Part shown: piece after piece, positions 1 through 8,778 of the stretch
Numbering within the stretch: the first letter of the stretch is position 1
Layout: every line of letters begins with the position of its first letter
Source: an uncultured Pseudomonadota bacterium
GTDB taxonomy: Bacteria > Pseudomonadota > Gammaproteobacteria > Steroidobacterales > Steroidobacteraceae
Direction: 5' to 3'
Length of the DNA: 64,000 nt
Assembly (NCBI GenBank): GCA_902826635.1
Contig: CADEFQ010000005.1
Location: 1-64,000 of the forward strand
Made by a program: the position numbers and the translations under genes
Notes under the pieces: generated by a model
The model's input: only the letters and a program-made list of their open reading frames with translations
Told to the model about the DNA's origin: nothing
The model's database searches: none

Positions 1-196
1 CCCCCGGCGAGAAGTAGCCGCGAAGAGTCGAACCCGCACGGCGCAGATCGAGCTGCGGCGTGTTGTCGATCGTGACGATGATCTGTCGGTCGAAGCGGGA
101 GGGCGGCGCCGGCTGCCCGGCAGGGGTCGCCGAAGCGCAGGCGAGCAACAGCGTGCTCGAGAGCACCACGACTACGGGATTCGCCGCGCTCGCCAC
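1..196 (-). CDS. Partial lipoprotein downstream of the anti-sigma factor
   Basis: The reading frame opens at a GTG just after the anti-sigma stop and runs off the left edge, so only about 65 residues are seen. A hydrophobic N-terminus ends in a lipobox, LLAC, with Cys about residue 20, which suggests a lipoprotein. The part after it contains RQIIVTIDNT. In related loci an ECF sigma/anti-sigma pair is often followed by a secreted subtilisin-like (S8) protease, and the sequence is compatible with the start of one, but no catalytic motif lies inside the window. There is no clear ribosome binding site, so the start is uncertain and could lie further upstream, inside the anti-sigma gene. Confidence 0.45.
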   Translation of the reverse strand, partial: MASAANPVVVVLSSTLLLACASATPAGQPAPPSRFDRQIIVTIDNTPQLDLRRAGSTLRGYFSPG

Positions 197-200
197 GTCG

Positions 201-860
201 CTACGGCCGGGTCGACGCCACGCCGGCGGGCGCGGCGAGCGCGACCAGCGGCGAGGCGCGCAGATCCGCAAGTGCGTGCTGCAGGTCGATCCCGGCCGCG
301 GCGGGAGCGAGCGTGTAAACGCCGCGAGGCGTGGGGCCGCTGGCGATCTGCAGTTTCGTGCGCGCGAGCAGAGTCTCGATGTCGCCCACCGTCGCCTCTG
401 CGACGAACACCACGCGCACGGCCTCACCGCTCGTGACGGACGGCGCCTCGGACGTCAGCGTCCGATACTCGGCAGGGCGCGAATCCCGATTCGCGAGCAG
501 TCCCGGCGTGAGCACCACTACCATGCTGGCTGCGGCGGCAAGACCGAGGCCCGGGATCCAGACCGACCGTCCCCAGCGCAACCGCCCCCAGCGCGACTGG
601 CCTCGGGCGGGTGGCTCGGCGTCGAGGGTACGTGCGAGCCGCGCCCACGCCGAGCGCGCGTCGCCGGGTGGCTCCGGTGCAGCGCGCATCAAGGCCATGA
701 GTCGCTGCTGCTCGTCGAGTTCGGCGTGGCAACTCGAGCAGTTCGCCACGTGACGCATGACGCGCGCGTTCTCGAGCTCCGAGAGCGTGTCGTTGACGAA
801 GAATGGCAACAGCTCGCGCACATCTGCGTGCTGCCGCTCGGATGCTGCCTGCTGGTTCAT
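201..860 (-). CDS. Anti-sigma factor with zinc-finger motif and one membrane segment
   Basis: This 219-residue protein has a cytoplasmic N-terminal zinc-binding anti-sigma motif, His37-x3-Cys41-x2-Cys44, typical of factors that hold an ECF sigma factor at the membrane. One hydrophobic segment lies at about residues 101-123. The periplasmic C-terminal part (about 130-219) is not a known sensor domain that I recognise. It loosely resembles the propeptide-like domains seen near subtilisin-type proteases, which is inference. The start ATG overlaps the stop of the sigma gene as ATGA (857-860), so the two are translationally coupled. Longer upstream starts in this frame would lie within the sigma gene and are unlikely. 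Confidence 0.8.
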   Translation of the reverse strand: MNQQAASERQHADVRELLPFFVNDTLSELENARVMRHVANCSSCHAELDEQQRLMALMRAAPEPPGDARSAWARLARTLDAEPPARGQSRWGRLRWGRSVWIPGLGLAAAASMVVVLTPGLLANRDSRPAEYRTLTSEAPSVTSGEAVRVVFVAEATVGDIETLLARTKLQIASGPTPRGVYTLAPAAAGIDLQHALADLRASPLVALAAPAGVASTRP

Positions 861-1456
861 TCCATCGTCTCCAGAAACGTCGATTGCGGATCGCGCGACG
901 GCACCGGCCACAATGTTCGCAGCCGCCCGCGAGCGTGGAACAAGCGCGTCTTCACGGTATTCACGGGGCATTTGACGATCGTTGCGATCTCCGCGCAGGA
1001 GTAGCCCATGAAATAAGTGAGTTCGAGTACGGCGCGATGCTCGGGCGACAGCTGCCGCAGCGCGGCCTCCAGCAGCTCCCGCTCTTCCGTGTCCCCGGCC
1101 TGCGCCGCTTCGCACTGGATCTCGCCCTGATATTCGATGACTTTCGCGTGCGACCGGCGCGATGCCAGGGCCTTCATCGCGAGCCGGTAGGCGATGCCAA
1201 AGATCCAGGTGGAGATCCGCGAGCGCGCCTCAAAACTGTCCGCCTTGCGCCATATCACCATCATCGTGTCGTTGACGATTTCCTCGACGAGCTGCGGGTC
1301 GGCGACGAGCCGCGAGCAGAAGCGTGTCAGTCGACGGTAATACGCCCCGAATAGCGCATGGAAGGCCGCTCGATCGCCACCACCGATGCGCCGCAGCAAC
1401 GCGCCCTCGGACTCGGCGGCTGCGGGGTCGCGACCATCAGCATCTGGTTCATCCAT
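857..1456 (-). CDS. ECF-type RNA polymerase sigma factor
   Basis: The protein is 199 residues, the usual size of an ECF sigma factor. Region 2 is visible as FHALFGAYYRRLTRF through IVNDTMMVIWRKADSF, followed by STWIFGIAYRLA. Region 4 is the helix-turn-helix LSPEHRAVLELTYFMGYS to CPVNTVKTRLFHARGRLR. The ATG at 1456 was chosen because the frame upstream runs into the porin gene and shows no sigma-like sequence. The anti-sigma gene follows with an ATGA overlap. It probably directs polymerase to an envelope-stress or protease regulon that includes its own operon. That role is inferred from the neighbours. Confidence 0.88.
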   Translation of the reverse strand: MDEPDADGRDPAAAESEGALLRRIGGGDRAAFHALFGAYYRRLTRFCSRLVADPQLVEEIVNDTMMVIWRKADSFEARSRISTWIFGIAYRLAMKALASRRSHAKVIEYQGEIQCEAAQAGDTEERELLEAALRQLSPEHRAVLELTYFMGYSCAEIATIVKCPVNTVKTRLFHARGRLRTLWPVPSRDPQSTFLETME

Positions 1457-1523
1457 GGTCAGGGCTCGAACCGCGGCTCCGATGAGGTTACCGGTAGTAA
1501 GTGCCTCCGGAGCGGCAAAAGGT

Positions 1524-2273
1524 TCAGAACTGGTAAACGACGCCCGCGACCACGTCTCCCCGAACGCTGGAGCGACCATAGAGCCGCCGGGCGCGACGGT
1601 CGGTATCGTAGTAGCCCAGATCCACGGTAAACCGGCCGATCTGCCAGGCGATCCCGGCATTCCAGTAAAGAGAGGTGCCGCCCCACCGCCCTGCGATGTC
1701 GAGTCGGCCCAGTCCGCCCGTCGCGCTGAAACCGTGCGGCAAGGGGTATTGCAGGCCTACTTCGGTCGCGAGGAGGCGGTCGCTGCGCACGGCCCCCAGG
1801 GTCGTGTAGCCGCTCCATCCCGGCGAGTAAGCGACTCCCAGTGTGAGGAGATCGCGATACTGCAGCGTGCCCCCGACCTCGGTGTAGTCGTAACCGATCG
1901 GATCGGGCGAGCGCGGATAGGTATAGCGACGCAGGGTGACTTCGCCCCGCCAATCGCCGCGCAGGTCACGGCCGAAACCGACGACATAGTCGATCTCCAG
2001 CTCGTGGTCCCAGCGTGACGCGAAGTCGGTGCGGCTCGCCCAGACGCCGCCGAACACACCCGATGGGTGCTCGTAACCGATACCCGCTTGCGAAGCGGGC
2101 TCTCCGCGAGTCTGGCTGCGGCCGCGAAACACGTAATCGGTCGTGAGTCCGACCAAGCCGTTGACCTTGCCCTCGGCCCGCAAGCATGCAAACGGCTGCG
2201 CCGCCGCAAGTCCGGCACCGGCCAGGACGAGAACGCGAAGCCCCCGACGCGCGAGTGAAGCCATGCCAGCCAT
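1524..2273 (-). CDS. TorF-family putative outer-membrane porin
   Basis: A 249-residue protein with a hydrophobic signal region at the N-terminus and then a chain of amphipathic beta strands ending in the aromatic C-terminus VVYQF, as expected for an outer-membrane barrel. The pattern GLTTDYVFRGRSQT near residue 40 is characteristic of the TorF/Gcw_chp family (TIGR02001), small porin-like proteins of unknown substrate. The true start may be the second Met (2264), because the first few residues add nothing to the signal. The gene lies upstream of the sigma gene in the same orientation with a gap of about 70 bases, in which I see no clear terminator. Confidence 0.82.
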   Translation of the reverse strand: MAGMASLARRGLRVLVLAGAGLAAAQPFACLRAEGKVNGLVGLTTDYVFRGRSQTRGEPASQAGIGYEHPSGVFGGVWASRTDFASRWDHELEIDYVVGFGRDLRGDWRGEVTLRRYTYPRSPDPIGYDYTEVGGTLQYRDLLTLGVAYSPGWSGYTTLGAVRSDRLLATEVGLQYPLPHGFSATGGLGRLDIAGRWGGTSLYWNAGIAWQIGRFTVDLGYYDTDRRARRLYGRSSVRGDVVAGVVYQF

Positions 2274-2818: not shown

Positions 2819-3298
2819 TCATTGAAGTGCAATGATGATTTCGAGGTACTCGCCGGGCGCGGCCATGGAGTCGTCCCCGGAGCGGTTGAACTGATCGACC
2901 AGCGCCACGAGATCGCGCTCGAGCGCAGCTACCGCCGCGTGTTCAAGCGCGGCGAAGATTTCGAGCAACGGGCCGTAGCAGGCCTTGAAGACTTCCAGCC
3001 AATGCGTGGGAGTTCGATAGCGAAACACGAAGTCGCGTCGCGCCAGACTGACCGAGCTCGCGTGGCCCTCGAACAACTCGACAATCCGCGCCTGGGTTCC
3101 CCAGAGTGCTGGTGAGTCGGCGACGGGCTTGCAAACGCGAGCCATCTCGGCGGCGGCGCGGGCCTGGTCGGCAGCGAATATCACCCCGAAGGTCGAGACG
3201 ACCACGCCGAAACTACGGTCCGGAAACGGAAGCGCTTCCGCGTCGGCCTGGCAGAATTCGATATCGAGCCGTTCGGCTGCACGGAGCCGCTCACCTCT
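2819..3298 (-). pseudogene. Remnant of a class I SAM-dependent methyltransferase
   Basis: The frame preserves the middle and end of a methyltransferase: DIEFCQADAEALPFPDRSFG, then STFGVIFAADQARAAAEMAR, and a C-terminal part with WGTQARIVELFEG, FRYRTPTHWLEVF and FNRSGDD. Two defects are visible. The N-terminal glycine-rich SAM-binding motif is gone, replaced by unrelated sequence that reads as part of an acetyltransferase in another frame. The text also jumps from ARVCKP directly to VADSPALWG, where intact relatives have roughly 35 more residues (family knowledge from memory). I read it as a broken gene with an internal deletion. Confidence 0.65.
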
Positions 3299-3471
3299 GC
3301 GACAAAAACTCCCCCGGCCTCGATTTGCTGCAACGGCAATTCGATCGCATCTGGATTTGCGAGCAGAGCATTGCGATCTCCAGGATTGTTCAGCGAGGCT
3401 CGCCACTGTAGGACCTCAAGTGTCTTTTGATCGACGGCAGCCGCTGCCCGCACGGTGATTGCGTGCTTTGG
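3286..3471 (-). pseudogene. N-terminal remnant of a GNAT acetyltransferase
   Basis: In a frame different from the methyltransferase remnant, the sequence reads ITVRAAAAVDQKTLEVLQWR followed by ANPDAIELPLQQIEAG and VFVAEVSG, which is the start of a GNAT N-acetyltransferase up to the second or third strand. The similarity stops abruptly near 3286, and the acetyl-CoA-binding motif is absent. The methyltransferase remnant begins at the same place, so this looks like a deletion junction between two genes. No intact start codon is visible before ITVRAA, which adds to the impression of decay. Confidence 0.55.
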
Positions 3472-3712: not shown

Positions 3713-3865
3713 GCACCGCTGCTCGATCGGCTGATGCATCACGCGCAGCGGCTGAAGTTCGAGGGCAAGAGCCGGCGGCTCAAAGAAGCCGCGTCACGAG
3801 TTGCGAAGCGCGCCGCGCGCAGGCAACCGTCCGCTCGTCCCGCCGCTTCAGATCGGGGAGTTTGA
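3713..3865 (+). pseudogene. IS21-family IstB ATP-binding protein, C-terminal fragment
   Basis: The plus strand encodes APLLDRLMHHAQRLKFEG followed by KSRRLKEAASRVAKRAARR and a stop at 3863-3865. The pattern LLDRLMHH..x.LKFEGKS.RLKEAA is the C-terminal end of IstB, the helper ATPase of IS21-type insertion sequences. The ATPase core and IstA are missing, so the element is dead. The transposon end should lie shortly after the stop, inside the 3' end of the gene read on the opposite strand (3780-4430). Confidence 0.55.
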
Positions 3866-4430
3866 CCCGGCCACGGTTGGGGGAGCTTGAGTTCGCCACC
3901 GGGGAGCGGATCATCTTTCCGACGAGCAAGTTGAGGTGCTCGAATTCCCGGTGCGGGATGGCGGCCAACGTCGGGAGCGAGTGAGTCGGATCGGCAATCG
4001 TGATCGCGCCACCGCCCCGGCCGCTGCAAGACACCTGCTCGATCCCGCTGACTCGCACGGTGGCGATCAGATTTCCGGCTGCGCCGAGGATCCGCAGGAG
4101 ATCCTGATCAGCGGGCAACGCGGTGATTTCGATCGTGCAGGAACGGGTCGCACTGGTGACGTTCGCTGTCGGAATGCCGAGCAGGTGCGTTGGTAGCCTC
4201 ACCCCGGTCGCCAGATCTGCTGTGGTCCCTCGATCAGTCGAGCCGAGGACGAGTGCGTCGCGCGACCCGGATCCGCCGATGAGAATGCCGGTGCGATCGA
4301 GCGACTGTGGCCTCGCCGTGTTGGCGTCGTCACGCACGCGCGCGATGGGCACGAGCACGCCCACCGTCGTCACTGCCAAGGCGACCGCTGACGCAAGCAA
4401 CGCAATCCGGGACGTCTGCCGGTGAATCAC
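3780..4430 (-). CDS. Secreted or membrane-anchored hypothetical protein, 3' end probably replaced by IS21 sequence
   Basis: A 216-residue reading frame begins with a basic stretch and a hydrophobic segment (about residues 8-30), which suggests a signal peptide or anchor. I do not recognise the remaining sequence. Its ATG overlaps the stop of the preceding haem lipoprotein gene as ATGA (4427-4430), which supports real, coupled translation. The last 28 or so residues are read from the antisense strand of the IstB remnant (3780-3865) and are unusually basic. The natural C-terminus was therefore probably lost and the stop codon supplied by the IS relic. Function unknown; it may belong with the adjacent haem locus. 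Confidence 0.55.
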   Translation of the reverse strand: MIHRQTSRIALLASAVALAVTTVGVLVPIARVRDDANTARPQSLDRTGILIGGSGSRDALVLGSTDRGTTADLATGVRLPTHLLGIPTANVTSATRSCTIEITALPADQDLLRILGAAGNLIATVRVSGIEQVSCSGRGGGAITIADPTHSLPTLAAIPHREFEHLNLLVGKMIRSPVANSSSPNRGRVKLPDLKRRDERTVACARRASQLVTRLL

Positions 4431-6688
4431 GGCGCGGCTCCCGCCTGAATCCAGGAGCGCACCTGGTCGATGGTCGCCTGGTCGAGGAAAGGCCCCCCGA
4501 GCGGCATGCGGGAACCGGCGAGCTGCGTACCCTCGAGCTTGTGGATGATGTAGCTGTTGTTCGGCTGGCCCGGCAATACGCGCTTGAACGCCGGTTCGTT
4601 GAGGCTGGTGACATTGACCAGCGCCGCGAATGTCGCCGCGGCGCTCGTCAAGTTCATGACGCCGGGCAAGACCCCACCGACGCCGGTGTGACAGCTCGCG
4701 CAGCGCGGCGTGAAGATGTTGGCCTGAAGCTGCGCCAGCGTCACGGCCACCGCGTTCGACACGGTGACGTCAACCGGCGCCGACGTCGTCGTATTACCGG
4801 CAGCATCACGCGCGACGGCAGTCAATGTGAAGACGCCATCGGCCACCGTCGTCGTGTTCCAGTTGACCGAGTAAGGCGCACTCGTGTCCGCGCCCAGCGA
4901 TGCCGCGCCGGCGAAGAACTCGACCTGGGTCACACCGATATTGTCCGCCGCGTTCGCGCTCACGGCCACGGTGCCGCTCACCGTACCTGCAGGCGCGGTC
5001 AGCGCGACCGTGGGCGGCGTGGCGTCGGGTGGCGGCGGAACGTTCGCTACGGTCACCGCCAACGCTACCGAAGTGGTCGCATTGCCGAATGCATCCTTCG
5101 CTACAGCGGTGAGGTTCACGCTGCCATTGGCGACGGTCGAGGTGTCCCAGTTGACCGAGTATGGCGCGGTCGGGTCGACGCCCAGCGAAGTGGTACCTGC
5201 AAAGAACTCGACTTGGGCGACCCCGACATTGTCGGCCGCGTCCGCCGTGACGACGACGGTGCCGCTCACCGCACCGGAAGGCGCCGTCAGCGCCACAGTC
5301 GGTGCAACGATGTCCGGCGCAGTGGCGCCGAGATCGATGCGTCCATAAAGACCAGCGACCTCGTTGGCGATGCCCGCAGCGAAGTACAGCGTCGTGGTCG
5401 GCTGGTTGCGCGCACCATTGCCGAACGCGATCCCCCACAGTCCGGGCGTCGCGATCGCCTGGCCCGCGCTGTCCTGGACGCGACCGACGAAGGCACCTGA
5501 CACCGGATCGTAGGCGTTGATAACGCCATCGATGAAATTACCCACAAGCAAGGAATTGCCGAGCGTGCCAAACCCCGCCGGCGCCATGGCGAGCCCCCAG
5601 GGCGCGTTCAGTGCACCACCCACGGCGACGAGATGAGTCACCAGAGTGCCGCTGGTATCGAACACATTGACGAGGCCGAAGCCGGCTCCCGCCACTTCGT
5701 CGCCCGTCGCGGCGTCCCGTTTCGCATAGGTCACGACGATGCGGGTCACACCCTGGATCTGCAGTGCGCGAATGCCAAACGGCGCGTAGTCGGCCGGCAG
5801 CGTCGGGTCCGTGAACCCGCCGGCAACCGTAATCCTGGCAAAGGTGTTGTTGAACACGTCGACCTTTTTGTTGTGGAAGTCGGTGGCGTACAACAAATCG
5901 GCGCCGGCGTTGTTCGCAATCGCGAGACCCTTGTAGACAGCCCCGCCCGCGCCGTCATCGTAGGCGATGATCGCGGTATCGGGATCGACGGTGGGAGCCC
6001 AGCCGAGAAGGGTTCCGCCTTCACCGTCGAATATGAAGCGCGCGGGACCGGATAGCGGGCCGCTGGTCACGACGAAATTGGCCGCGCTGCCACTGAAGAC
6101 AATTCCGGTGGCGTCGGCGCTGCCGTTGAGACCCGCAGGCAGATCGACAACCAGTGACTGAGCTTTGCCGGTGCCGTCGTAGAGTGTCGACGCCTGCGTG
6201 GCGTTGTTGGCAACCCACACCGGCGCGCCGGGTGCAAAGACAATCCCCCAGGGATTCACGAGCTTCGCGTCCGTGGTGACTGCGGCCACGGCGCCATCAG
6301 ACACGAGGCTGCTCATCGAGAATGCGCTCGGCGCATTGACAGTGAGCGTCGTCGACTGGCTATTGCTCTCGCCGTAGATGCCGCCGGTGCAAACCAGGTT
6401 GAAGGTCTGGGTGCCTGCCGCGGTGGGCGTGACGACCAACGTCCCGCTCGCGGCCTGCGCGCCACTCCAGGCGCCGCTCGCCGTGCAGCCTGTTCCATTG
6501 GTGCTCCAGGTCAGCGTCGCACTCTGGCCCACCGTAATCGTCGCGGGCTGCACTGCGATGGTCGCGCTCGCCGGCGGTGGCGTATCCGACCCGCCGTAAC
6601 CGCCGCCGCATGCGGCGACGATCGTCGCGAGTAGGGGAAGAAGTATGTGAGCGCGCATCGCGTGGATGCGCTCGGACGGCAGGTTCAT
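4427..6688 (-). CDS. Lipoprotein with TIGR03118 propeller, Ig-like repeats and C-terminal monohaem cytochrome c module
   Basis: The 753-residue product begins with a lipoprotein signal (IVAACGGG, Cys27). Domains in order are an Ig-like domain (about 36-118), a TIGR03118-type beta-propeller-like region (about 120-455), two near-identical Ig-like repeats each starting with PTVALTAP (about 460-645), and a C-terminal module with a haem c site Cys663-A-S-Cys666-His667. The end of this module (RVLPGQPNNSYIIHKLEG, RMPLGGP, VRSWIQAGA) closely matches the lipoprotein encoded divergently at 6851. The start at 6688 has GGGAG before it. The likely location is the outer membrane or cell surface, with a role in electron transfer or as a sensor. 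Function is not established. Confidence 0.8.
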   Translation of the reverse strand: MNLPSERIHAMRAHILLPLLATIVAACGGGYGGSDTPPPASATIAVQPATITVGQSATLTWSTNGTGCTASGAWSGAQAASGTLVVTPTAAGTQTFNLVCTGGIYGESNSQSTTLTVNAPSAFSMSSLVSDGAVAAVTTDAKLVNPWGIVFAPGAPVWVANNATQASTLYDGTGKAQSLVVDLPAGLNGSADATGIVFSGSAANFVVTSGPLSGPARFIFDGEGGTLLGWAPTVDPDTAIIAYDDGAGGAVYKGLAIANNAGADLLYATDFHNKKVDVFNNTFARITVAGGFTDPTLPADYAPFGIRALQIQGVTRIVVTYAKRDAATGDEVAGAGFGLVNVFDTSGTLVTHLVAVGGALNAPWGLAMAPAGFGTLGNSLLVGNFIDGVINAYDPVSGAFVGRVQDSAGQAIATPGLWGIAFGNGARNQPTTTLYFAAGIANEVAGLYGRIDLGATAPDIVAPTVALTAPSGAVSGTVVVTADAADNVGVAQVEFFAGTTSLGVDPTAPYSVNWDTSTVANGSVNLTAVAKDAFGNATTSVALAVTVANVPPPPDATPPTVALTAPAGTVSGTVAVSANAADNIGVTQVEFFAGAASLGADTSAPYSVNWNTTTVADGVFTLTAVARDAAGNTTTSAPVDVTVSNAVAVTLAQLQANIFTPRCASCHTGVGGVLPGVMNLTSAAATFAALVNVTSLNEPAFKRVLPGQPNNSYIIHKLEGTQLAGSRMPLGGPFLDQATIDQVRSWIQAGAAP

Positions 6689-6758
6689 TCGGAACTCCCG
6701 ATCAGGCGGCCAGATTGATGATGGGTTGCGCCAGTTGAGTGCTCGATTGCGCGGAATT

Positions 6759-6794
6759 GGTTCACTTGCGCGCGCGGCGCGTTGCGAGTGAACC
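6759..6794. promoter_or_regulatory. Inverted repeat between the divergent haem genes
   Basis: Perfect 8-base arms, GGTTCACT (6759-6766) and AGTGAACC (6787-6794), flank a 20-base GC-rich centre. The repeat sits in the 162-base gap between the two divergently transcribed haem lipoprotein genes, a natural place for an operator controlling both sides. No regulator gene lies next to it, so the binding protein is unknown. Confidence 0.4.
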
Positions 6795-6850
6795 CTTTTC
6801 GCCGTCGGCAGCACTCACCTCACAAACCATCAACGAATCGGAGTGAGGAT

Positions 6851-7687
6851 ATGGTGCTGTCCAACGGGCGCGTGACCGCGGCCGTGCTTGCGCTCCTGCT
6901 CGCTTCCTGCGCAGGCAACGGCGAGGGCTTGGATGAGAACGGCCGCCCGATTGGCGAGACGCCGCCTCCGCCATCGCAGGGCGCGGTCGACTTCGCGTTG
7001 CTGCAGAGTACGATCTTCACTCCGCTGTGCACCACCTGTCACGCCGGCGGCGCTGCGCCGCTCGGGCTACGCCTCGAGGCTGGCGTCAGTTTTGCGATGC
7101 TCGTCAACGTCGCAAGCGTCGAGGTCCCGGAGCTGCGACGAGTTGCACCCGGGAATCCCGATGCCAGCTACCTGGTGCACAAGATAGAAGGCCGTGCCGC
7201 GGTCGGTGCGCGCATGCCGCTCGGTGGACCGCCGCTGCCACAGACTTCGATCGACAATGTGCGCCAATGGATCAGCGCGGGCGCGCCCGCGCCGGTCACG
7301 GCCACCAACAGCACGGCGCCCACGGCAATCATTGCCAGCGCACCCATCGATGGCGAAGCGCTCGACGCGCCGCTCGGGCGTTTGCTGGTCGTTGTCTCGC
7401 GCCCGCTCGATGCGTCGCTGGTGAACACCACGACAGTACAACTCCGCCACATCGGTGCAGCGACGCCCATACCGCTGCGGAATATCCATGTGCCGCTGGA
7501 TGACACAAGCAGCGTATGGATTGAGACGGCGGAACCGCTGGCCGCCGGCGAATATGCACTGACTCTGCGTGGCAGCGGCGCGGCCGCACTCGCCGACACG
7601 GAGGGTGATGCGATCGATGGCGATGGCGACGGCATCGCCGGAGGCGACTTCCACTTGCAATTCACAGTCACGGAGCCCCCGCGATGA
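6851..7687 (+). CDS. Monohaem c-type lipoprotein with C-terminal Ig-like domain
   Basis: A 278-residue protein. The lipobox LLASC (Cys20) marks it as a lipoprotein. A single haem c site, Cys60-T-T-Cys63-His64, lies in the same fold as the C-terminal module of the divergent gene: both share ARVAPGNP-like and RMPLGGP elements and end in VRQWISAGAP. The C-terminal half (about 150-278) looks like a bacterial Ig-like domain. A good ribosome binding site (GAGTGAGGAT) precedes the ATG. The stop overlaps the ATG of the next gene as ATGA, so it is translationally coupled to the haem-tagged barrel protein. Probable role: passing electrons at the outer membrane (inference). Confidence 0.78.
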   Translation: MVLSNGRVTAAVLALLLASCAGNGEGLDENGRPIGETPPPPSQGAVDFALLQSTIFTPLCTTCHAGGAAPLGLRLEAGVSFAMLVNVASVEVPELRRVAPGNPDASYLVHKIEGRAAVGARMPLGGPPLPQTSIDNVRQWISAGAPAPVTATNSTAPTAIIASAPIDGEALDAPLGRLLVVVSRPLDASLVNTTTVQLRHIGAATPIPLRNIHVPLDDTSSVWIETAEPLAAGEYALTLRGSGAAALADTEGDAIDGDGDGIAGGDFHLQFTVTEPPR

Positions 7688-8778
7688 CACATCGGACGCT
7701 ATGGTCTGTCTTGCTCGCCGTCACCGCCCTGTGCGCTGCTGCCTCGACAAGGGCCGAACCCTGGATTGCAACGCAGTCGGGATTCAAGTGCATGCAGTGT
7801 CACGTCAATCCAACCGGCGGAGGCCTGCGCACCACCTTCGGAAATGTCTATGCACAGACGGTGCTGTCGGCGCGCCGTCTCAATCCGGATGACGCCGAAC
7901 TATGGACAGGCAACATCAGCCGATTCCTGTCGGTCGGTGGCAATGCGCGCACCAATGCCATGCTCACCGACACACGCGCGGCCGGCACCGAGACGGCCTT
8001 CGAGCTACAGGAACTGCGGCTCTACCTCGACGTCGCCGTCGTTCCCAATCGTCTGTCGGTGTATGTCGATCAGCGCGTGGCGCCGGGCAGTGCGGCCAAT
8101 ATGGAAGCCAACGTGCGCCTGTGGCTGCGCGAGGGAGCACTTTACGTGAAGGCGGGCCAGTTCTATCTGCCCTTCGGCCTGCGGCTCGAGGACGACAGCG
8201 CATTCGTGCGCCAGGTACCGGGCCTGAACATGACGACGCCCGACAACGGCGTCGAGCTCGGATTCGAGGGAGGATCGTGGTCGGCACAACTCGCCATTGC
8301 GAACGGCGCTGCCGGCGCTTCGGAGTCCGACAACGCCAAGCTGGTGGCGGCGCGCGCTGAATTCGTGCAGCCGGCATGGCGCATCGGCGTCAGCGCCAGC
8401 CGCAACGGAGTTGACGCCGGCGATCGCCTCGCCGCGGGCCTGTTCGCAGGCGTGCGCACCGGCCCGATCGCCTGGCTCGCTGAAGGGGACTGGGTCGATG
8501 ACGACAGTCTCGGCGCGGGCGGCCGCACGTTGCTGACGGGTCTGCTGGAGGCGAACTGGCTGATCCGCAAAGGGCAAAATTTGAAGGTGACCGCGGAGTA
8601 CTTCGAACCGGACGACGACGTCGCGGAAAACGAGCAGAACCGCTACAGCGTCGAATGGGAATACTTTGCCATGCAGTTCCTGGAGCTGCGCGCGGGTGCG
8701 CGCATCTACGATGGCATCCCGCAGAATGACCTGCAGAACCGGCGCGAGTACTTCCTGCAACTGCACGCGTATTTCTGA
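7684..8778 (+). CDS. Outer-membrane beta-barrel protein with an N-terminal c-type haem motif
   Basis: The 364-residue product has a signal peptide cleaved around residue 24 (STRA|EPW). A haem c site, Cys36-M-Q-Cys39-His40, follows in the context GFKCMQCHVNPTGGGLR. From about residue 75 on, the sequence is a run of amphipathic strands ending in LQLHAYF, as in outer-membrane barrels such as phosphate-selective or DcaP-like porins. A haem placed at the periplasmic mouth of a barrel suggests an electron conduit or a haem-dependent channel. That is inference, since only one haem site is present. It is coupled to the upstream monohaem lipoprotein by an ATGA overlap and converges on yifB. Confidence 0.78.
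   Translation: MTHRTLWSVLLAVTALCAAASTRAEPWIATQSGFKCMQCHVNPTGGGLRTTFGNVYAQTVLSARRLNPDDAELWTGNISRFLSVGGNARTNAMLTDTRAAGTETAFELQELRLYLDVAVVPNRLSVYVDQRVAPGSAANMEANVRLWLREGALYVKAGQFYLPFGLRLEDDSAFVRQVPGLNMTTPDNGVELGFEGGSWSAQLAIANGAAGASESDNAKLVAARAEFVQPAWRIGVSASRNGVDAGDRLAAGLFAGVRTGPIAWLAEGDWVDDDSLGAGGRTLLTGLLEANWLIRKGQNLKVTAEYFEPDDDVAENEQNRYSVEWEYFAMQFLELRAGARIYDGIPQNDLQNRREYFLQLHAYF

Follow-up and report, generated by a model that had tools for sequence, protein, structure and literature searches.

Iron oxidation is being tracked with Cyc2 as a marker gene, and it is an open question in the field how a single haem can serve the whole crossing of the membrane. In this iron oxidase a monohaem cytochrome is fused to a porin; it is recognised by the sequence AXPXFAR[Q/K][T/Y] before its CxxCH haem motif and by PXL four residues after it, and its 16-stranded porin has been likened to OprO/OprP (PMC8406198). 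FoxE (PDB 5mab), the two-haem iron oxidase of photoferrotrophs, is built of c-type haem domains with Met ligands. In MtrCAB, MtoAB and PioAB, a barrel protein works with c-type cytochromes. Here we describe a locus in a stretch of 64,000 nucleotides (the window; positions 1 to 64,000 of contig CADEFQ010000005.1, assembly GCA_902826635.1) from an uncultured member of the Steroidobacteraceae. The locus encodes a porin-like barrel protein that carries a haem motif itself, together with two haem lipoproteins transcribed in opposite directions, and the system reaches as far as the left edge of the window.

As judged from sequence, and with a probability of roughly 0.6, this locus would be a dedicated, sigma-controlled and Cyc2-like outer-membrane electron conduit. 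The original prediction for this DNA had proposed a small outer-membrane electron conduit of an unrecognised type. The conduit is still the best reading, and promoters now link the divergent genes; the unrecognised type is not upheld, since the likeness to Cyc2 had been overlooked.

Results

A predicted haem barrel and two haem lipoproteins

The window's three proteins of interest, the barrel protein and both lipoproteins, contain one haem motif apiece. Their signal peptides and lipoboxes were assigned by eye.

7684 to 8778, forward strand: fused monohaem cytochrome/porin-like protein of 364 amino acids, with signal peptide, CMQCH and barrel-like domain
7789 to 7803, forward strand: CMQCH of the barrel protein (residues 36-40), directly after the signal peptide (...STRAEPW)
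8764 to 8766, forward strand: His361 of the barrel protein, near-invariant, in the last predicted strand
6851 to 7687, forward strand: lipoprotein A, with a monohaem module of type A and an immunoglobulin (Ig)-like region; lipobox LLASC, CTTCH at residues 60-64, RMPLGGPPL and VRQWISAGAP
7684 to 7687, forward strand: ATGA overlap of the lipoprotein A stop and the barrel gene start, read from the sequence
4427 to 6688, reverse strand: divergent lipoprotein of 753 amino acids with a C-terminal module of type B; lipobox VAAC, CASCH at residues 663-667, RMPLGGPFL and VRSWIQAGAAP

The original prediction had described two opposite-strand lipoproteins sharing a monohaem module, one of them coupled by ATGA to a barrel-type protein with CMQCH after its signal peptide, and both statements were borne out by these features. 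It had also named, as a finding that would speak against it, membership of a known porin family that does not conserve CxxCH. This is not so: CxxCH stands at the same place in all 24 aligned barrel homologs (38-53% identity to the window protein), and none of the curated family libraries searched claims the barrel protein above its cut-off. GGG after CxxCH and His361 are each kept in 23 of the 24.

Weak profile matches were obtained within the barrel family to LbtU (10 of 24 members), to Porin_O_P (7 of 24, the window protein not among them) and, in part of the family, to Porin_4. The window barrel reaches 28.1 bits against the LbtU siderophore porin (NF033652), with partial coverage of the protein and an NCBIfam cut-off of 90, and filing it as LbtU was rejected on this score. 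PDB sequence searches with the barrel protein gave no useful match. A crude hydropathy scan gave 22 peaks, which were grouped by eye, with no formal test, into about 16 strands. The last strand of outer-membrane proteins usually runs to a C-terminal Phe. With the last strand taken as ending at this residue, His361 would face the lumen near the periplasm and is a candidate haem ligand; it may be the second iron ligand of the barrel haem.

Distribution and gene pairing

Among 117 sampled genomes of the same order, 24 matched the barrel profile (16 of 46 genera; one match weak). A class-wide sample had matches in 8 of 369 genomes, own genome included and two of them weak, and in a phylum-wide sample only the own genome and one other of the same class matched strongly, all further matches being weak and N-terminal. 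Plasmid sequences contained no match, and viral contigs only a distant barrel-like open reading frame (ORF) and a short fragment. On the contig of this ORF (L064:92-1590, IMGVR_UViG_3300028840_000918), the barrel-like product of 326 amino acids has CISCHVSPSGGG close to its N-terminal end and may be a distant monohaem barrel; its ORF is preceded by a 173-amino-acid ORF, YceI-like by eye, and followed by apparent phage genes.

A haem lipoprotein lies upstream of the barrel gene in nearly all loci; L054 is an exception, and L056 is not cleanly resolved. Of the 21 loci examined, at least 7 have an ATGA overlap of the two genes; elsewhere the genes are mostly separated by short gaps or joined by short overlaps. 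Haem lipoprotein and haem barrel form the sole conserved core across loci. In genome G766 (L063:3556-12641) the pair adjoins a two-haem cytochrome c, a cytochrome bd-type subunit I and further haem proteins, and in G093 it stands beside a cytochrome c; these neighbours suit a link to respiration. The G766 cluster also contains a protein bearing an ethylbenzene dehydrogenase haem domain. The cytochrome c maturation gene CcmH is present in the genome of the window.

Haem modules of the lipoproteins

Across the lipoproteins the module follows the pattern CxxCH...SYLIxKLEG...RMPLGGPPL...IRQWIxDGAP. In at least 10 relatives of the order, an A-type and a B-type module are found on a single lipoprotein with an Ig-like region between them. 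This two-module lipoprotein is the arrangement in most relatives outside the window's family, whereas the window has A and B on two divergent genes. The split seen here, set against the fusion in relatives, is evidence that both divergent genes work together. Two loci of the same family as the window, L044 (G275) and L049 (G839), likewise have B on its own gene adjoining the pair, and in a tree of 40 modules the module of the divergent protein groups with those of these two loci with a support of 99/98. The wider B group received 82/96, which is below the program's mark.

The divergent lipoprotein matches the TIGR03118 domain (NCBIfam, E-value (E) 2.9e-97) and contains two Big_7 Ig domains (Pfam, E 3.9e-28). 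B-type modules are joined to varied large extracytoplasmic domains, TIGR03118 in the window and L049 and CHRD in L044 and L046. A Lipoprotein_15 protein lies upstream of the pair in L048. Behind the divergent lipoprotein, a 216-amino-acid ORF (3780-4430, reverse strand) with a signal-like start shares a GTGA overlap with the lipoprotein stop and may be co-transcribed; Pfam and NCBIfam scans of it gave no match.

Concerning relatives of the modules themselves, the lipoprotein family profile matches both haem domains of FoxE (whole protein E 4.3e-9, single domains 0.006 and 0.01). The Met of RMPLG is aligned, and one FoxE domain falls in the A region and the other in the B region. The window system differs from FoxE in that its lipoproteins carry Ig-like domains, A and B are split on two genes and the whole is paired with a barrel. 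No FoxY/FoxZ-like protein was found among the immediate neighbours identified by family scans, the rest of the genome not having been searched. Of 18 lipoprotein family members, 13 match the planctomycete-type cytochrome module PSCyt1 (PF07635) at an E of 0.05 or less. With 16.0 bits, the window lipoprotein stays below the Pfam gathering cut-off of 22, and it was not filed as PSCyt1 for this reason.

Three like promoters

Three elements of the type recognised by extracytoplasmic function (ECF) sigma factors were found in the window.

6789 to 6817, forward strand: ECF-type promoter TGAACC-N17-CACTCA upstream of the lipoprotein A and barrel genes, forming the right half of an inverted repeat; the same element stands before the operon in relatives
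6736 to 6764, reverse strand: ECF-type promoter TGAACC-N17-CACTCA before the divergent lipoprotein, forming the left half of the inverted repeat
1498 to 1526, reverse strand: ECF-type promoter TGAACC-N17-CACTTA before the sigma operon, by which the operon would regulate itself

The pattern TGAACC-N17/18-CACTYA occurs at exactly three sites in the 3.2-Mb genome, before the sigma, divergent lipoprotein and lipoprotein A genes, and its reversed control at none. Since the pattern was drawn partly from these three sites, the count is descriptive, and its independent part is the absence elsewhere together with the relatives. An earlier, stricter pattern had given one site only. Across 14 genomes, a related pattern was found at 9 sites, of which 8 belong to this locus; the control gave 4 hits. 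TGAACC is common to the regions upstream of the lipoprotein gene in relatives, where the 7-mers TTGAACC and TGAACCT and the 8-mer TTGAACCT exceeded all 60 shuffles. The shared promoter elements tie both divergent genes together.

The inverted repeat that had been noted between the two promoters does exist (6751-6802; two 19-nucleotide arms, 79% complementary). On its own it is not significant, 16 of 200 shuffles being as good, and its reading as a meaningful palindrome was rejected on these grounds. Its halves, which are conserved in relatives, are best read as two divergent promoters.

The sigma cluster

The left end of the window holds candidate regulators of these promoters.

857 to 1456, reverse strand: ECF sigma factor (Sigma70_r2, Sigma70_r4_2, Sigma70_ECF); its family F6 stands beside the operon in relatives
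201 to 860, reverse strand: anti-sigma factor with zf-HC2 domain (E 2e-8), in ATGA overlap with the sigma gene; family F3
1 to 200, reverse strand: probable N-terminal part of an S8 (subtilisin-like) protease that is truncated at the contig end; translation RQIIVTIDNTPQLDLRRAGSTLRGYF, compared by eye with family F4 of the relatives
1524 to 2273, reverse strand: Gcw_chp family protein (E 1.4e-21); its family F5 occurs in 7 loci, and its membership in the system is uncertain

The sigma start was placed at 1456 because of the promoter position. In relatives the pair is often flanked divergently by genes for an ECF sigma factor, an anti-sigma factor with zf-HC2 domain and a protease of the S8 type, and a Gcw_chp protein lies near. 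One relative of family F4 is a Peptidase_S8 (E 3.5e-31); a search of the window's own genome with a relative's whole S8 protease gave no match. Between the Gcw_chp gene and the 216-amino-acid ORF, positions 2819-3406 (reverse strand) resemble by eye a fragment of an S-adenosylmethionine-dependent methyltransferase, possibly broken.

Comparison with Cyc2

The barrel family shares with Cyc2 the order of signal peptide, short segment with a single CxxCH and porin-like barrel, and the N-terminal pattern AxPxxA...GxxCxxCH is largely common to both. It is shorter (about 365 amino acids versus 457-490 in the full-length Cyc2-like set), has a His in the last strand and GGG after CxxCH, and differs further in a barrel that is not alignable and in an operon with haem lipoproteins plus an ECF sigma cluster. 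The strict Cyc2 motif AXPXFAR[Q/K][T/Y] is present in none of the 24 homologs, the loose form AxPxxA in all of them, and PXL after CxxCH again in none.

With hhalign, the signal-free N-terminal haem segment aligned to Cyc2-like proteins, a set recognised by motif and not of verified members (strict motif in 3 of 5 rows), over 66 columns with a probability of 96.5% (E 7e-10). The control against the lipoprotein haem module gave 52% over 27 columns. When Cys and His of CxxCH were masked, the alignment to the Cyc2-like set kept 47.8% and the control 0.3%; a reversed control gave 3-4%. The similarity to Cyc2-like N-termini thus goes beyond the haem motif, though it is a moderate one. The barrel family's own profile retrieved the Cyc2-like proteins through their N-termini, and a Cyc2-like profile search of the genome had the window barrel as its sole match (E 1.9e-5). 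We regard the protein as built like Cyc2 but rejected filing it as Cyc2, both Cyc2 marks being absent and the barrel regions not aligning. Genome G852, of the same family as the window, holds both this barrel type and a separate Cyc2-like protein (L043, L057).

Discussion

Haem attachment, fold and orientation of the barrel, location of the lipoproteins, promoter recognition by the sigma factor, and electron transfer with its direction are what we infer in the following mechanism. In the 364-amino-acid protein, a porin-like barrel would follow a short N-terminal segment that binds one c-type haem and plugs the periplasmic mouth of the pore, as has been proposed for Cyc2. His361, which is predicted to point into the lumen where the last strand nears the periplasm, may be the second iron ligand. 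The haem lipoproteins with modules A and B would serve as electron entry or relay at the outer membrane, so that electrons could pass between their haems and the barrel haem and then to periplasmic carriers. The ECF sigma and anti-sigma factors, probably with the S8 protease, would activate the three like promoters and thereby switch on the sigma operon itself and the two divergent cytochrome genes. Uptake of electrons from Fe(II) or another reduced compound is preferred over export as a fair first guess, Fe(II) being suggested by the similarity to Cyc2 and FoxE.

Several points weigh against a Cyc2-like conduit under sigma control. Locus L054 has a barrel gene without an adjacent haem lipoprotein, and the sigma cluster is not nearby in about half of the loci. 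Much of the Cyc2 similarity is owed to CxxCH itself, the barrel regions compared with those of Cyc2-like proteins gave an hhalign probability of 0.2% and no alignment, and the comparison is not fully independent, the Cyc2-like set having been retrieved via the barrel family's profile. AlphaFold2 on the barrel reached a predicted local distance difference test score (pLDDT) of 30 (three sequences) and 27 (two), which leaves barrel fold and haem position unconfirmed. Moreover, a single haem plug cannot alone span the membrane, a problem common to Cyc2.

The multihaem porin-cytochrome conduits (MtrAB, MtoAB, PioAB) were rejected as a home for this system on the single haem motif per protein and the 364-amino-acid barrel. 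A barrel protein working with c-type cytochromes is shared with MtrCAB, MtoAB and PioAB, whereas the window system differs in its single haem per module and in a far smaller barrel, to which a haem is fused. A bolder and doubtful version of the conduit would make it a separate class, with a single haem plug ligated by the last-strand His, two surface lipoproteins whose modules arose by the splitting of a two-haem protein like FoxE, and a dedicated ECF sigma factor that has this system as its whole regulon.

Of the explanations that depart from the conduit, a surface redox enzyme system survives best and is still unlikely. The lipoproteins with TIGR03118, CHRD, Lipoprotein_15 or Ig domains would here have an organic polymer or a small molecule as their ligand, for whose oxidation or reduction the haems of modules and barrel would deliver or remove electrons. 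The variety of large domains that carry the B module and the Lipoprotein_15 protein upstream in L048 point this way, and control by anti-sigma factor and protease would fit an induced envelope response. Against it, only haem lipoprotein and haem barrel are conserved as a core, and to our knowledge no redox activity is known for any of these four kinds of domain.

The locus could also encode a diverged but true Cyc2-type Fe(II) oxidase, which we consider a poorer prospect. Oxidation of Fe(II) would take place at or within the barrel, electrons would reach periplasmic carriers via the haem, and the lipoproteins would be accessory iron oxidases of the FoxE kind. The N-terminal similarity to Cyc2-like proteins is consistent with this, as are lipoprotein modules that resemble those of FoxE, which is also an iron oxidase. 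The complete lack of the strict motif and of PXL in the 24 homologs and the barrel that is not alignable argue against it, and the substrate cannot be read from a similarity of cytochrome c modules.

An improbable alternative is a porin or an uptake channel of siderophore type whose haem has a structural or redox-sensing role, without electron passage through the membrane. The weak LbtU and Porin_O_P matches would agree with this. Against it, the LbtU match of the window barrel is far under the curated cut-off with partial coverage, and redox work is what the invariance of CxxCH and the near-constant presence of a partner haem lipoprotein point to.

Conclusions

A search of the open-access literature, with most subscription journals outside its coverage, found no paper naming the barrel family, including under CHVNPTGGG-type motifs. 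As no curated library searched names the family either, such genes would be passed over in surveys of extracellular electron transfer. From what its sequences tell, the Cyc2-like conduit described here looks like a second family of fused monohaem cytochrome-porins, with partner lipoproteins and an apparently private regulator. It offers a compact system for the study of partner proteins, haem ligands and the inducing signal.

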